NCBI GenBank assembly: GCA_026002935.1
Contig: BPGH01000001.1
Coordinates: 1,103,965 to 1,167,964, forward strand
Reading direction: 5' to 3'
DNA from: Acidimicrobiia bacterium
GTDB lineage: Bacteria > Actinomycetota > Acidimicrobiia > IMCC26256 > PALSA-610
Length of the DNA stretch: 64,000 nucleotides
The position numbers were made by a program, and so were the translations under genes. Shown here piece after piece: positions 1,302 to 7,423 of this stretch. The stretch's first letter is position 1, and every line of letters starts with the position of its first letter. A model generated the notes under the pieces. That model saw only the letters and a list, made by a program, of their open reading frames with translations, was not told the origin of the DNA and ran no database searches.

Positions 1302-1631
1302 TTGCCGGTCGGCGACGACGGCCGCCCCGACCCGCGGGGGGCCGGGGAACACGACAGCACGGTCGTGCACGCGCCCGGCGTGCTCGTGCGGCGGACCCCG
1401 TGGTCGGTGGTCGCGCTCGGCCCCGACGCGCCGGAGGCCGTCGTCCTGCGGGACGGCGCCGTCGAGGTGTGGGACGCGTTCGCAACGCCCGCGCGCGTCG
1501 CCGACGTCGCCGCCCGCGTCGCGACCGCGCGCGGCGCGACCGTCGCGGCCGTGTCGGGCGAGGTCGTGGAGGCCGTCCGCCGCCTCGTCGGCGCCGGAGT
1601 GCTGCACGTGGTGACCGACGGGGCGCGATGA
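1302..1631 (+). CDS. PqqD-like small protein (first of cassette)
   Basis: A 109-residue protein that resembles PqqD-family peptide chaperones: a winged-helix-like pattern in which VVLRDGAVEVWDAF matches the usual 'dG.vY.lN..a..iW' strand-turn-helix and VVEAVRRLVGAGVLHVV matches the closing helix. The match is weaker than that of the second PqqD-like gene at 3498. The TTG start at 1302 follows GAGAGGGGG by about 8 nt. It overlaps the next gene by ATGA, so the two are translationally coupled. It opens a four-gene cassette with a nucleotidyltransferase, an HprK-related kinase and another PqqD-like protein. Function unknown; a binding partner or chaperone role is inferred from family membership only. 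Confidence 0.6.
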   Translation: MPVGDDGRPDPRGAGEHDSTVVHAPGVLVRRTPWSVVALGPDAPEAVVLRDGAVEVWDAFATPARVADVAARVATARGATVAAVSGEVVEAVRRLVGAGVLHVVTDGAR

Positions 1632-2728
1632 GCGCCTCGGCCGCCTGGTTCGCCCGGGTCGTCGCGGCGCACGGCCTCCCGGGGGCCGGCCGCGCGCGGG
1701 CGCCGGGGGCGGCGCCGGCGTTCGCCGAGCTCCTCGCGGTCGCGACGCGCGAGGGCATGACCGGCCTGCTGTGCCGCGCGATCGACGCGGGCGCGGTCGA
1801 GGCCGACGGCGCGCAGCGGGAGCGGGCGCGCCGGGTGCACGAGGACGCGCTGGCCCGCGACCTGCGCCTCGAACGGCTGGCGGTGCGCACGAGCACGCTC
1901 CTGGCGGCCGAGGGCGTCGCGCACCGGGTGCTCAAGGGCCCGGTCGTCGCCCGCGTGGCGTACGAGGCGCCCGACCTGCGGTCGTTCCGTGACGTGGACG
2001 TGCTCGTCGGCAGGGACGCGTTCGAGCGCGCGGTGCGGTTGCTCACCGCCGAGGGCGGTACTCGCCGCTTCGGCGAGCCGCGCGCCGGGTTCGCGGCGCG
2101 CTACACGAAGGGCGTGTGCGTCGAGGGGGTCGACGGGTGCCAGGTCGACGTCCACGTGACGCTCGCGCCCGGGCCGTTCGGTCTCGCCATCCCGGTCGAG
2201 GAGCTCTTCGGCTCCCCGGACACGATCCGCGTCGGCGGCGTCGCGGTCCCGGTGCTCGGTCCGGTGCACCGCTTCCTCCACGCGTGCTACCACGCGGCGC
2301 TCGGCGACGACCCACCCCGCCTCGCGTCCCTGCGTGACGTCGTGGAGCTCGTGCGGCGCGGCGAGTCGCACGCCGACGCGGTGCTGGCGACGGCTCGCCG
2401 CTGGCGCGGGCGCGCGGTCGTGCAGCGCGCGCTCCGGCTCTCGGCCGCGACGCTCGGCGTGCCGGTGCCCGAGGCGTACGACGAGTGGGTGCAGCGATAC
2501 CGGCCGGCACCGCTCGAGGCGGCGGCGCTGCGGTCGTCGCTGCCGCCCGCCGCGGGGTACGCCCGGCAGGCCGCGGCCGGCCTGCTCCTGCTGCCCGGCG
2601 CCCGGGCGCGGTTGCACTACGCCGCGTCGCTGCTGTTCCCCGGCCGTGAGTACCTCGCGGACCGCGAGGGTTCCTACCTGCGGCGGGCACGCCGCGCCCT
2701 CGGCCTCGCGCGGGGGAGCGCACGGTGA
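1628..2728 (+). CDS. Nucleotidyltransferase family protein (NTP_transf_5 type)
   Basis: A 366-residue protein of the uncharacterised nucleotidyltransferase group (Pfam NTP_transf_5). The diagnostic region is HRVLKGPVVARVAYEAPDLR followed by SFRDVDVLV, where the DxD pair (about residues 122-124) would bind metal and nucleotide. A helical C-terminal half with YHAALGDDPPRLASLRDVVELV follows, also usual in this family. The ATG at 1628 overlaps the previous stop; its own stop overlaps the next GTG at 2725. The family often sits beside HprK-like kinases and PqqD-like proteins in polysaccharide or peptide-modification loci. No substrate is known. Confidence 0.75.
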   Translation: MSASAAWFARVVAAHGLPGAGRARAPGAAPAFAELLAVATREGMTGLLCRAIDAGAVEADGAQRERARRVHEDALARDLRLERLAVRTSTLLAAEGVAHRVLKGPVVARVAYEAPDLRSFRDVDVLVGRDAFERAVRLLTAEGGTRRFGEPRAGFAARYTKGVCVEGVDGCQVDVHVTLAPGPFGLAIPVEELFGSPDTIRVGGVAVPVLGPVHRFLHACYHAALGDDPPRLASLRDVVELVRRGESHADAVLATARRWRGRAVVQRALRLSAATLGVPVPEAYDEWVQRYRPAPLEAAALRSSLPPAAGYARQAAAGLLLLPGARARLHYAASLLFPGREYLADREGSYLRRARRALGLARGSAR

Positions 2729-3501
2729 CCCACCGCTGTCTCGGCTTCCGCTTCACGCTGTCGGCCGACGACCGGACGGTGCGGGCGCGCCTCGACGACC
2801 TGTTCGCGGCCTGCCGGGACGACGGCGGACCGCCCGGGGCCCGCCTGCACGTCGGCGCGGCCGGCGCCCGCGGGCAGGTGGTCGTCACCGACGGCGGGCA
2901 GGTCCTGTTCGGGCCCGGCGACGTGGAGACGGCGCTCGCGTACGTGGTGTGGGAGGTCAACCGGCGGGCGGTCGGCGGCGCCGAGGGGTACCTGCTGGTG
3001 CACGGTGCGGCCGCGGCGCGCGGCGGCGGCGCCGTGGTCGTGGTGGCGGCCTCGGGCGGGGGGAAGTCCACCTTCGTGCACGCGCTCACGCGTGCGGGCT
3101 GGGGATACCTGACCGACGAGGCGGTCGCGGTCGACCTGTCGTCCGGTCTCGTCGTCCCGTACCCGAAGCCGATCGCGCTCGCGGGCGAGGGCGGGCGCGA
3201 ACGGCTCGTCGCCCCCGGGGAGCTCGTCGCGGGCGTCGCGCCGCCGAGCCCGCCGCGGCTGGTGCTCGTGCCGGAGCGCCGCGAGGGCGTGCCCGTGTCG
3301 TTCGAGCCCGTGGGGCGCGCGGCCGCGCTGGTGCACCTCGCCGAGCACTCGTTCAACTTCCGCCGGGCGGGGTGTGCGGCGTTCGACGCCGCGGCCGCGG
3401 TCGTCCGCGGGTCGGAGTGCCTGCGCGTTCGGTACGCCGAGGCCGACGATGCCGTCGCCGCGCTGGGCCGCGATCCGTCCGTGTGGGGAGGGCCCGCGTG
3501 A
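2725..3501 (+). CDS. HprK-related kinase
   Basis: A 258-residue P-loop protein related to the C-terminal half of HPr(Ser) kinase/phosphorylase. The Walker A is AASGGGKST (about residues 108-116) and the following YLTDEAVAVD supplies the acidic residues (D131/E132) at the place of the HprK DD pair. A LVLVPERREGVPVSFEPV strand and a helical tail follow. It lacks the N-terminal DRTGG-like domain of true HprK, and no HPr gene is nearby, so classical carbon regulation is unlikely. It matches the HprK-related kinase A type found with PqqD-like and nucleotidyltransferase genes. The GTG start overlaps the previous stop (GTGA), and its stop overlaps the next GTG. Confidence 0.75.
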   Translation: MTHRCLGFRFTLSADDRTVRARLDDLFAACRDDGGPPGARLHVGAAGARGQVVVTDGGQVLFGPGDVETALAYVVWEVNRRAVGGAEGYLLVHGAAAARGGGAVVVVAASGGGKSTFVHALTRAGWGYLTDEAVAVDLSSGLVVPYPKPIALAGEGGRERLVAPGELVAGVAPPSPPRLVLVPERREGVPVSFEPVGRAAALVHLAEHSFNFRRAGCAAFDAAAAVVRGSECLRVRYAEADDAVAALGRDPSVWGGPA

Positions 3502-3806
3502 CCCCCGGGCCCGGCCGGCCGCGCCGGCGGGCGGGCCTGTGCAGCGCGGTGCTCGACGGCGAGGCCGTCGTCTACGACCCCGGCGACGGGTCGCTGCACC
3601 ACCTCGACCGCGCGGCCACGCAGGTGTGGCTCCGCTGCGACGGCGGCCACACGCTCGAGGAGATGGTCGCCGCGATCTCGGCCGAGCACGGGGCGCCGCC
3701 CGCCGAGGTCCGCGCGGGCGTGGCCGCGGTGCTCGGGCGCCTCGCCGGGCTCGGTCTGGTCAGCGGCGCGCCGTCGGCGAGTGGTCCCGCGCCCGCAGGT
3801 CGATGA
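3498..3806 (+). CDS. PqqD-like protein (second of cassette)
   Basis: A 102-residue PqqD-family protein. The pattern AVVYDPGDGSLHHLDRAATQ VWLRCDGGHTLEEMV is the family signature (value, aspartate/asparagine turn, then Ala-x2-vW helix), followed by a helix and VLGRLAGLGLVSG. PqqD homologues bind peptides or act as small docking domains. Here the partner is unknown; a direct neighbour is the HprK-like kinase, whose stop it overlaps (GTGA). Its last 47 nt overlap the 3' end of the convergent fusion gene at 3760, giving a sense-antisense tail overlap. Confidence 0.75.
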   Translation: MTPGPGRPRRRAGLCSAVLDGEAVVYDPGDGSLHHLDRAATQVWLRCDGGHTLEEMVAAISAEHGAPPAEVRAGVAAVLGRLAGLGLVSGAPSASGPAPAGR

Positions 3807-6800
3807 CGCGGCGCGGGCCGCCGTGCGGGACCGTGCGCAGGAGGTCGTCGAGCGCCTCCGCGTGACGGTGCGCGCCCGCGACCACCTCGATGACCCGGTC
3901 GACGTCGTCGTCGGCCATCTCGGCGTGCAGCGGGAGCGACACGACGCTGCTCGCGACCCGGTCGGTCACGGGCAGCTCGACGGGATCGAGATACGCGTAC
4001 GACTGCTGCCGGTGCACCGGCGGGTCGAAGTAGTTGCGGGTGTCGATCCCCTCCGCCGACAGCACGGCGACGAGCTGGTTGCGCGTGAGCCCGAAGCGGT
4101 CCGCGTCGATCGAGATCGTGAAGTCCTTGAACGTCGAGACGAAGTGGGCGGGGACGATCTGCACGGAGACACCCGGGACGGCCGACAGCGCGAGGCGGTA
4201 GCGCCGTGCGATCTCACGCCGGCGTTCCAGGGTCTCGTCCAGCGTCTCGAGCGATTCGAGCGCGACGGCGGCGTGGAACTCCGACATGCGGGCGTTGAGG
4301 CCGACGAACCGGGTGTCGTAGTCGCCCGGGTTGCCGTAGTCACGGCCGACCCGGACCGCCTCGGCGAGCCCGCTGTCGTCGGTGGCGACGAGGCCGCCCT
4401 CGCCGGCGACGAGCGGCTTGGTCGGCGTCAGGCTGAACACCTCGGCCACGCCGAACCGCCCGACCGGCTGGCCGTCGGCGAGCGCCCCCATCGCGTGCGC
4501 GGCGTCGAACAGCACCGGGACGCCGTAGCGCTCCGCGCGCCGGACCAGTTCCTCGGGGTCGCAGGGCGAGCCGAAGACGTGGGTCGCGAGCACCGCACTC
4601 GCGCCGTCGAGCGCGGCCATCGCGTCGTCCAGGTCGATCTGGAAGGTGTCCGGGTCGCACTCGACGAAGCGCGGGAGGCGGCCGTTCCAGGCGACGGCGT
4701 GGGCGGACGCGGAGAACGTGAAGCTCGGGACGACCACGTGGCCGGGCCGGTCGTCGACGATCGCCCGCACGGCGAGCATGAGGCCGGCGGTGCACGAGCT
4801 CGTCGCGATCACCTCCGAGACCCCGAGCCGGGTCGCGATCCGGTCCTCGAGCTCGGCGACGAGCGGCCCGTTGGTGAGCATCCCCCGCTCGTAGGAGGGC
4901 TCGACCCGCTTCATGACGCGCTCGAGCGGCGGCCGGGCGGGCCGGGCGAACGGGAGGCCGGCCTGGAACGCGGGGCGGCCGCCGAGCAGCGCGGGGAGGC
5001 GGGTCGCGTGGCGCGTCCGGCGGACCGTCACCTCCTGCGCATGCTCCTCGAGGTCGATCTCCACCTGGAGCCGGCAGTCGACACCGGCCTGCCGGAGGAG
5101 CTGGCCGAGCAGCGACGTCACCGCGGCGCCCGCCCCCGGCTCGGTGCACTTCTTCTCCAGCAGCTCGAGGAAGAAGTAGAGCGTCGCCTCGTCGAGGGTC
5201 GACTTCGGCGTGACGGCGCGGATCGACGGGTGCGCCGTCGCCTCGATCGTCTCGGCGTCGTCGTGGAGCTGCTCGTGGAGCCGCTCGCCGGGCCGCGGCC
5301 CCGTGATCTCGATCTCGATGTCGTCGTCGGGTCGCAGGCCCGCGAGCCGGATCATCTGCCGTGCGAGGTGGAGGATCGACACGGGCTTGCCCATGTCGAG
5401 GAGGAACACCTTGGCCTCGTGGGCCATCGCCCCCGCCTGGAGCACGAGGCTCACCGCCTCGGGGATCGTCATGAAGTACCGCGTCATCTCCGGGTCGGTG
5501 ACCGTGACCGGGCCCCCGTCGAGGATCTGGCGCAGGAACGTCGGCACGACGCTGCCGCGGCTGCCGAGCACGTTGCCGAAGCGCACGGCGGCGAACGGCA
5601 GGTCGTTCTTCGACCCGACGGTGAGCACGACGCCCTCGGCCGCGCGCTTGGTCGCCCCCATCACCGAACACGGGCTCGCGGCCTTGTCCGTCGAGATGTG
5701 CACCAGCCGGCAGCCGTGCTGTGCGGCGAGCCGGGCGAGCCACCACGTGCCGAGCAGGTTCGTCGTGACCGCCTCGACCGGGTACCGCTCGAGGATCGGG
5801 ACGTGCTTGTGGGCCGCGGCGTGGAACACGACGTCGGGCCGGTACCGCTCGAAGATGTCGCGCAGCCGGGACTCGTCGCGGATGTCGGCCAGGATCGGCT
5901 CGCCGGCGGTCAGCTCGCCGCAGACGAGGTCGTGCAGCAGGCTCTCGTCCCGGTCGAGCAGCAGCAACCGGGCGGGCCGGTACCGCAGCACCTGCCGGGC
6001 GATCTCGCTGCCGATCGACCCGCCCGCCCCGGTGACGAGGACGGTCGCCCCCTCGAGGTAGTCGGCGATCTCGTCGTTGTCGACGGGTGCGTGCTCCCGC
6101 CCGAGCAGGTCGGCGAGGTCGAGGTCGCGCAGGCTCCGCAGGAGCGGGCCGTTGACGATCTCGGACGCGGGCGGCAGCACCTTGACCTGCGCGTCGGTCC
6201 GCAGCGCGCGGTCGATCACCTCCTGGATCTGCTCGCGCTGGGCGTACGGCAGCGCGACCAGGATCCGTGCGATCCGGTGCCTCGAGCACAGTGTCTCGAG
6301 CTCGTCGGTGGCTCCGAGCACGCGCAGGCCGCGCACGCGCCGGCCGCGCAGGTCGGGGTCGTCGTCGACGAAGCCGACGAGCTCGATCTCGTCGCGCTTG
6401 GACGAGGTCAGCTCGAGCGCCAGCGACGCGCCGGCGCTGCCCGCGCCGACGATCAGCGTCCGCAACCGCTCGGTGCCGTCCTGCGCACGGGAGCGCTGCC
6501 GCTCGAGCGCGAAGAGACGGGCCTGGAACCGGATCCCGCCGCAGCCGAGCAGCGTGATCAGTGCGGCGACCGCCGGCGCGGTGAGCAGCGGCAGCGTGGT
6601 GCCGGTGAGGTCCGAGACGCCGGCGAGCAACGCGGTCGTCGTGAGCGCGCCGATCGCGGTGGCCGCGACGACCCGTACCGCCTCGTCGACCGACGCGTAC
6701 CGCCACACCGGCCCGTAGAGGCCCACGAGCTGGTTCGTGACGAGCTGCACGACGACGGGGAGGCCGACGTACAGCAGCGCGCCACGCGCCACGTCCGCGG

Positions 6801-7017
6801 GCACGTCGAGCTCGAATCCGGCCGCGTACGCGAGCAGCCACGCGACGAAGACGACGCCGGCGTCGAGGATCCGCAGCGACGCGTTGCCGCGCCGCCGTGC
6901 GACCCGGTACACCGCACGCGGCAGACGCGCCTCGTCACCCTGCTGCGTGCCCGGCAGCGGTGCTGCGTCGCTCAACGGTCGCTCCCCAGCCGTGGTTGAT
7001 GCGCGGACGGGCCCCAT
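3760..7017 (-). CDS. Fused nucleotide-sugar 4,6-dehydratase / DegT aminotransferase
   Basis: One uninterrupted frame of 1085 residues joins two enzymes. Residues ~50-165: four hydrophobic segments. ~186-285: CoA/NAD-binding domain (TLIVGAGSAGASLALEL). ~320-600: FlaA1/CapD/PglF-like SDR with VLVTGAGGSIGSEIARQ, STDKA at 442-446 and MGATK (M453, K457), the Met-Lys version of the catalytic pair typical of membrane 4,6-dehydratases. ~690-1070: DegT/DnrJ/EryC1 fold-type-I aminotransferase with SFTFSASAH and PLP lysine K867 in SLTPTKPLVAGEGG. Expected chemistry: UDP-sugar to 4-keto-6-deoxy to 4-amino-4,6-dideoxy sugar, as by separate PglF and PglE. An alternative TTG start at 6975 has a good GGGGAG ribosome site 6 nt upstream, whereas the ATG at 7017 has none; the shorter form (1071 aa) may be the true one. 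Confidence 0.88.
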   Translation of the reverse strand: MGPVRASTTAGERPLSDAAPLPGTQQGDEARLPRAVYRVARRRGNASLRILDAGVVFVAWLLAYAAGFELDVPADVARGALLYVGLPVVVQLVTNQLVGLYGPVWRYASVDEAVRVVAATAIGALTTTALLAGVSDLTGTTLPLLTAPAVAALITLLGCGGIRFQARLFALERQRSRAQDGTERLRTLIVGAGSAGASLALELTSSKRDEIELVGFVDDDPDLRGRRVRGLRVLGATDELETLCSRHRIARILVALPYAQREQIQEVIDRALRTDAQVKVLPPASEIVNGPLLRSLRDLDLADLLGREHAPVDNDEIADYLEGATVLVTGAGGSIGSEIARQVLRYRPARLLLLDRDESLLHDLVCGELTAGEPILADIRDESRLRDIFERYRPDVVFHAAAHKHVPILERYPVEAVTTNLLGTWWLARLAAQHGCRLVHISTDKAASPCSVMGATKRAAEGVVLTVGSKNDLPFAAVRFGNVLGSRGSVVPTFLRQILDGGPVTVTDPEMTRYFMTIPEAVSLVLQAGAMAHEAKVFLLDMGKPVSILHLARQMIRLAGLRPDDDIEIEITGPRPGERLHEQLHDDAETIEATAHPSIRAVTPKSTLDEATLYFFLELLEKKCTEPGAGAAVTSLLGQLLRQAGVDCRLQVEIDLEEHAQEVTVRRTRHATRLPALLGGRPAFQAGLPFARPARPPLERVMKRVEPSYERGMLTNGPLVAELEDRIATRLGVSEVIATSSCTAGLMLAVRAIVDDRPGHVVVPSFTFSASAHAVAWNGRLPRFVECDPDTFQIDLDDAMAALDGASAVLATHVFGSPCDPEELVRRAERYGVPVLFDAAHAMGALADGQPVGRFGVAEVFSLTPTKPLVAGEGGLVATDDSGLAEAVRVGRDYGNPGDYDTRFVGLNARMSEFHAAVALESLETLDETLERRREIARRYRLALSAVPGVSVQIVPAHFVSTFKDFTISIDADRFGLTRNQLVAVLSAEGIDTRNYFDPPVHRQQSYAYLDPVELPVTDRVASSVVSLPLHAEMADDDVDRVIEVVAGAHRHAEALDDLLRTVPHGGPRRVIDLRARDHSPTARR

Positions 7018-7032
7018 CCGTGCGGCTGCCAA

Positions 7033-7061
7033 ATCCTGGCTATAGGCCGGGGCGAGGTCAA
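7033..7061 (-). promoter_or_regulatory. Candidate promoter of the fusion gene
   Basis: Reading leftwards: TTGACC (7061-7056), 17 nt, CAGGAT (7038-7033). Transcription would begin near 7026, leaving only ~9 nt before ATG 7017 but ~50 nt with a Shine-Dalgarno sequence before TTG 6975, which favours the TTG start. Confidence 0.4.
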
Positions 7062-7423
7062 CACGTTGCAAGGGCAATGTGAAGCCGGCGCGGGAAAAAC
7101 CCCCAGGGTGATGAAATCGCTGGTCGCGCCGTTGTCGCGTTCGGCGCGCTTTGGCCGATTCGACGCACCGGCCGGGCCGTCCGGGCCCTCGACGTTTCGG
7201 GCGCGTGGACATCCCGTGAAGCGTCGGGATCGGCATCGCGAGGTCGCGGCGCCGAGGACGCGCGCCCGTGCCGGGCCGCGCATGGGCCGCCGGGGAGGGA
7301 GAGAGCTGGGCGGGGACTGCTTCCCCCTCCCCGACGGCTTCGAGCATGCCCCGCGGGCGCGCGCGGCGGCCACGCCAAGATTGAGGATCGGCCCGCGGGC
7401 ACGCACGCGTGCCCCGGGGGCCG
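7062..7423. other. Non-coding stretch with a locally AT-richer patch
   Basis: About 360 nt between the promoter of the fusion gene and the end of the response regulator. Around 7090-7130 the sequence is distinctly less GC-rich (runs of A and of C, then GATGAAATCGC). A 123-codon frame crosses it on the plus strand, but its composition (Arg/Pro/Gly-rich, no motif) looks like chance. I see no riboswitch or RNA consensus that I recognise. Confidence 0.4.

Follow-up and report, generated by a model that had tools for sequence, protein, structure and literature searches.

Genes for HprK-like kinases, PqqD proteins and NTP_transf_5 proteins are common, and most of them have no assigned role. The closest described systems are peptide pathways, in which the kinases PadeK, ThcoK, PsmK and LppK phosphorylate one serine of the precursor, at times repeatedly; PsmN, annotated as a nucleotidyltransferase, is required for a hexose on the precursor phosphate, and LppB is a discrete RRE that holds the precursor (PMC9266682, PMC13381572). 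The lasso kinases require a His-Lys-Asp-Asp set (review, PMC9266682), and PqqD/RRE domains bind peptides (PMC7470986). Two further systems invite comparison, namely the HPr-rel-A set (TIGR04352 HprK_rel_A, TIGR04353 PqqD_rel_X) and the SynChlorMet cassette. In the open-access literature we found no paper that mentions 'HPr-rel-A', none that has HprK, PqqD and a nucleotidyltransferase together, and no description of a version of the set linked to exopolysaccharide (EPS).

Here we analyse such a set in a window, that is a whole stretch of 64,000 nucleotides from an Acidimicrobiia bacterium. An earlier note on this DNA had held the biochemistry of such genes to be unknown, whereas homologues in clusters for lasso peptides and for linear polyphosphorylated peptides (LPP) phosphorylate serine and add a hexose (PMC9266682, PMC13381572).

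Results

The set consists of four genes on the forward strand. PqqD1 (1302–1631, +) is a PqqD/RRE-like protein of 109 aa when read from a TTG start, although its true start is uncertain. It is followed by a nucleotidyltransferase-like protein of the NTP_transf_5 family (1628–2728, +; 366 aa; PF14907, E=1.1e-35 over the full profile), an HprK-related kinase with a GTG start (2725–3501, +; 258 aa) and PqqD2, a second PqqD/RRE-like protein, also with a GTG start (3498–3806, +; 102 aa). The four ORFs at 1302–3806 that the earlier note had reported were found again together with their overlaps, ATGA at position 1628 and GTGA at positions 2725 and 3498. In all four, GC content by codon position is coding-like (0.93–0.96 at the third position, 0.57–0.63 at the second), and this base composition is that of real genes of a GC-rich host. 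Because the same arrangement recurs in relatives, it is not a product of chance.

The kinase contains the Walker A motif AASGGGKST that had been read from the window before, the residues H93, P-loop K114, D131 and E132, and a PYPKPI motif. Its best model is TIGR04352 (HprK_rel_A), with similarity over the full length and 114.4 bits; the cut-off of 200 is not reached, and seven related kinases of the same clade tested against this model all fall below it as well (69–141 bits). Against Pfam, neither Hpr_kinase_N nor Hpr_kinase_C is matched, which bears out the previous description of a kinase without the N-terminal HprK domain. When solved structures are searched with a profile built from the kinase together with its relatives, HPr kinases rank first (E=8e-8), the next convincing matches are also HprK, and the profile alignment takes in the P-loop, the Asp after it and the conserved His. 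A structure model of moderate confidence (pLDDT 82.7, four input sequences) matches the fold of PEP carboxykinases and HprK, mainly over the P-loop core, with TM-scores of 0.3–0.5.

The transferase is the only PF14907 copy found in the host genome. Its conserved residues (K103-G104, R118, D122-x-D124 and D174-x-H176) are invariant over 20 relatives. Comparison with solved structures by sequence gave no meaningful relative, and the structure predicted from the single sequence (pLDDT 44) is too poor for use.

PqqD2 matches Pfam PqqD (PF05402) with 54 bits and E=1.7e-14 and, with 41.1 bits against a cut-off of 35, passes TIGR04353, the model for the PqqD protein of the HPr-rel-A system. PqqD1 does not match TIGR04353, and its score against Pfam PqqD (19.6 bits, E=0.0011) is below the cut-off of 23.4. 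An HMM built only from the PqqD1 proteins of relatives matches it with E=4.7e-14, and on the strength of this profile match we count PqqD1 as a confirmed PqqD-like protein. PqqD genes unaccompanied by a radical-SAM gene had seemed odd in the earlier note; the oddity falls away, since PqqD proteins can work without a radical-SAM partner and many belong to other peptide pathways. Furthermore, PqqD2 carries a C-terminal extension of about 270 aa in five other loci (L078:11414–12529, L079:11476–12582, L083:6353–7438, L084:1334–2422 and L087:3733–4857). The extension is weakly like the first half of the kinase, has no P-loop, and is possibly a pseudokinase fused to the RRE.

To describe how the set recurs, we used 61 whole genomes, comprising the host's own genome and 60 relatives, and left out weak matches. 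The tally is 43 transferase genes, 38 kinase genes and 61 places with PqqD. Both a kinase and a PqqD gene lie within 5 kb of 28 of the 43 transferase genes, so that the three classes do recur together as previously stated; 36 of the 38 kinases have PqqD within 5 kb, 15 of them with two PqqD. Genes were called and proteins clustered in 40 stretches around set members. The commonest order in relatives is c5, PqqD1, transferase, c3, kinase and PqqD2, where c5 is a Wzc-like chain-length/tyrosine-kinase protein and c3 a membrane protein of about 500 aa. This commonest arrangement sits inside EPS loci, and the genes around the sets of relatives encode PglF-like dehydratases and a UDP-sugar dehydrogenase as well as GT4 glycosyltransferases and a polysaccharide deacetylase. 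A second arrangement, seen in L067, L071 and L073, keeps PqqD1, transferase, kinase and PqqD2 directly next to each other, like the window, with c3 and c5 facing this block; the four-gene order thus co-occurs across genomes, absence of which the earlier note had named as counting against it.

The c3 family is present in 45 of 198 genomes of the class. The transferase occurs in 40 of the 45 genomes with c3 versus 22 of the 153 without it (Fisher p=1.5e-20, uncorrected for kinship). The first c3 member examined belongs to no Pfam family, a weak match to Wzy_C appears in one of 21 members, and comparison with solved structures found no relative. The C-terminal tails of c3 in L078–L087 carry repeated DPYxRF motifs, a possible recognition or phosphorylation site. 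The tail of the Wzc-like protein (YAHPGEVS) and that of c3 (DPYxRF) were considered as substrates of the set; because each motif is limited to part of the clade, either tail is only a lead.

In the host genome, the set is not inside an EPS locus. The host EPS locus (C1:1.797–1.810 Mb) is 0.69 Mb away and contains glycosyltransferase, deacetylase, acetyltransferase, sugar-phosphate-transferase and UDP-sugar dehydrogenase families, as in relatives, together with a weak Wzc-like match (C1:1.80 Mb); no set members were seen in the 20 kb read there. A relative of c3 lies at C1:471 kb, 0.63 Mb from the set and beside gyrase genes. Neither c3 nor the Wzc-like gene adjoins the set in this genome, which we read as a set that has moved away from its partner genes and which may have an independent function here.

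The only glycan gene beside the set is its convergent neighbour (3760–7347, −), a fusion of a sugar-nucleotide 4,6-dehydratase (Polysacc_synt_2, PF02719, E=3.5e-101) with a DegT-family aminotransferase (PF01041, E=1.2e-89). It overlaps the end of the set by 47 bases. Both domains lie in one ORF of 1195 codons, as had been proposed, with an uncertain start that is perhaps near 7017. Homologues occur in set-carrying loci of several relatives, and the fusion is possibly functionally linked to the set. The PglF-like NDP-sugar 4,6-dehydratase and the DegT domain represent two consecutive steps of an amino-sugar pathway, and in relatives the dehydratase is a separate protein of about 615 aa. The role in glycan assembly suggested from this one neighbour is backed far more by the EPS loci of relatives.

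The previous observation of an HprK-like kinase without an HPr gene as substrate extends to the whole host genome, in which HPr (PF00381) was not found, the assembly being about 85% complete and containing indel errors; the same search detects HPr in 7 of 14 control genomes. Because of this incompleteness and the frame errors, the absence is strong and not absolute, and absent or broken genes in the host genome therefore have to be read with care. At C1:466–473 kb (L112/L113), for instance, gyrA and the c3 homologue switch frame several times.

Maximum-likelihood trees of kinases and transferases were used to assign clades. The window kinase falls in a clade of 21 EPS-type kinases (support 100/100) and the window transferase in a clade of 16 EPS-type transferases (support 99/97). 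Outside these clades are the lasso-type sets (L092 and L093), sets with fusions of PqqD to a peptide-like tail (L090, L091, L099 and L103) and sets accompanied by small YxxP peptides in arrays (L095, L097 and L098). All 21 kinases of the EPS-type clade have an H-K-D-E signature, with Asp-Glu after the P-loop, whereas all 11 kinases of the lasso, fusion and array types have H-K-D-D, with Asp-Asp at this place; the L102 kinase, on a long branch outside the EPS-type clade, has Asp-Glu too. Most EPS-type kinases have a (P/F)xKPI motif in addition. Since their catalytic set ends with Glu, and that of lasso kinases with Asp, the activity and the substrate of the EPS-type kinases may differ.

Two of the other versions in the same bacterial order have features of their own. 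In the first, PqqD is fused to a C-terminal tail, YxxP...LLLLDPIHEVDEAGWP (L091:10331–10762, L090:8385–8831, L099:8177–8614 and L103:10871–11260), with YxxP restricted to L090 and L091 (YxxP...DPIHEVDEAGWP tail). Next to these fusions are genes for an HprK-like kinase and a GT2 glycosyltransferase, some fusions also have an NTP_transf_5 gene in the vicinity, and each fusion looks like an RRE joined to its own substrate; the LLLLDPIHEVDEAGWP tail motif was not found in the literature searched. In the second, tandem arrays (L097:7007–8742 and L098:814–2076) encode small proteins, five to six per array, in which YERPRV..T.V.EPLN or YEAPGVTRR motifs are repeated. Genes for PqqD, an HprK-like kinase and two JmjC/cupin-like proteins adjoin the arrays, an NTP_transf_5 gene is not far off, and the small proteins are candidate precursors of an unnamed family of phosphorylated or hydroxylated peptides.

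By contrast with these versions, we found no short precursor gene in EPS-type loci: in a six-frame comparison, PqqD1 is the sole conserved short protein and no YxxP-leader ORF recurs. The search for conserved extra small ORFs that the earlier note had advised thus returns a member of the set itself, and a hidden precursor beside the set was rejected. The lasso B2 peptidase (PF13471) was not detected in the host's own genome by a search that finds it in L092, L093 and G026, and among the neighbours of the set at 1–15 kb of the window there is no LppS-like peptidase or exporter. With no detectable B2 peptidase in the genome and a separate clade, a lasso cluster was likewise rejected.

Judged from its sequences, the set is by gene content of the HPr-rel-A kind, with a kinase that fails the family cut-off. 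Like HPr-rel-A, it has PqqD, kinase and transferase together, a PqqD2 that passes the model, and a kinase for which HprK_rel_A is the best model over the full length; the HPr-rel-A-like name given to it before is hence apt. Unlike in HPr-rel-A, its kinase (114 bits) and the seven clade relatives tested are all below the cut-off of 200 bits, it has a second, more divergent PqqD, and the sets of relatives include c3 and a Wzc-like gene. With the LPP clusters of Bacillota (lppKBSDN) it shares a discrete RRE, an HprK-like kinase and an NTP transferase, and similar biochemistry is expected; it differs in that a precursor, a signal-peptidase-like LppS and an MsbA-like exporter are all missing from beside the set, in the EPS genes that accompany the sets of relatives, and in having two PqqD proteins. 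The tailoring genes of paeninodin and pseudomycoidin (PadeK/PsmK, PsmN) likewise include an HprK-like kinase with a His-Lys-Asp-acid set and an annotated nucleotidyltransferase, and the lasso-type loci L092 and L093 of the same bacterial order have PF14907 transferases of the same family as the window's. Unlike them, the window set has no B2 peptidase, cyclase or precursor, carries H-K-D-E rather than H-K-D-D, and falls in separate clades. Similarity to SynChlorMet is weak (PqqD2 to ScmD, 30 bits; kinase to ScmC, 18 bits), far below the cut-offs of 100 and 125. In how it would work, the set is like the phosphotransfer part of the LPP and paeninodin-type clusters, and it belongs to neither.

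Discussion

We tentatively read the set as a peptide- or protein-modifying phosphotransfer set serving EPS assembly, a reading in which we place not quite half of our confidence. Its direct basis is which genes are present and the families they belong to, the conservation of catalytic residues, co-inheritance with EPS genes and clade membership. More specifically, by analogy with the described homologues, the two PqqD/RRE-like proteins would hold and display a stretch of polypeptide, the HprK-like kinase would add at least one phosphate to a hydroxyl side chain, probably of serine, and the NTP_transf_5 protein would then cap the phosphate with a sugar or a nucleotide. RRE-guided phosphorylation followed by capping is the most likely chemistry, because homologues have this biochemistry and both enzymes retain their catalytic residues. 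The target would, at a guess, probably belong to the EPS machinery, as one of its proteins or tails, or else be a glycan carrier peptide. We favour these targets because no short precursor gene recurs and because the set is co-inherited with EPS machinery, namely the Wzc-like protein and the membrane protein of about 500 aa. This reading, for which our confidence stays just short of half, is weakened by the absence of a visible substrate gene, by the separation of set, c3 relative and EPS locus in the host, and by Glu in place of the lasso Asp.

The EPS-locus context with its glycosyltransferases and c3, and the fact that no conserved peptide gene was found, would also fit a glycan target, with the kinase phosphorylating a sugar of a lipid-linked repeat unit, the transferase adding a nucleotidyl or sugar-phosphate group, and the PqqD proteins acting as scaffolds. 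We consider this unlikely, as the nearest characterised homologues of both enzymes use peptides (PMC9266682, PMC13381572), PqqD/RRE domains bind peptides (PMC7470986), and the presence of two PqqD proteins would be difficult to account for. We equally doubt that the set belongs to an undetected RiPP cluster, the precursor of which is elsewhere or was missed, making a phosphorylated, capped and secreted linear phosphopeptide of the LPP kind. The enzyme classes are those of the LPP core (RRE, HprK-like kinase and NTP transferase; PMC13381572), and within the same order peptide candidates are present in other versions (the tandem YxxP arrays of L097 and L098, the PqqD fusions of L090 and L091), but the EPS-type loci have no recurring precursor of the YxxP type, the B2 peptidase was not detected in the host genome, and EPS-type kinases and transferases form clades of their own.

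A regulatory switch, in which reversible phosphorylation and nucleotidylation of an EPS enzyme sets sugar-coat synthesis, would recall HprK, itself a regulatory kinase/phosphorylase, and would agree with the company of the Wzc-like tyrosine kinase and c3, whose tails carry repeated DPYxRF in part of the clade; we regard it as very unlikely, given that a regulatory domain is absent, that two PqqD proteins suggest substrate delivery, and that many c3 members are without DPYxRF. True HprK/HPr control of carbon metabolism is scarcely credible and was rejected, the HprK-like P-loop fold notwithstanding, since a genome search that works in 7 of 14 controls finds no HPr in the assembly, which is about 85% complete, neither Hpr_kinase_N nor Hpr_kinase_C is matched, and the best-scoring named family is HprK_rel_A.

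Returning to the phosphotransfer set serving EPS assembly, its most far-reaching form would be a RiPP-style machine (RRE, HprK-like kinase and phosphate-capping transferase) recruited to EPS assembly, where it would attach a sugar to a protein or peptide through a phosphodiester. We rate this quite unlikely; if true, a sugar-phosphodiester polypeptide would prime, anchor or ride on the sugar coat, and would represent a new linkage between glycan and polypeptide. Once a distinct clade is recognised by a separate active-site signature and an additional PqqD, and is seen to be inherited with an EPS module, a cassette without a name becomes a pathway that can be tested, and the EPS-type clade is set apart from the peptide-antibiotic versions that use the same enzymes.
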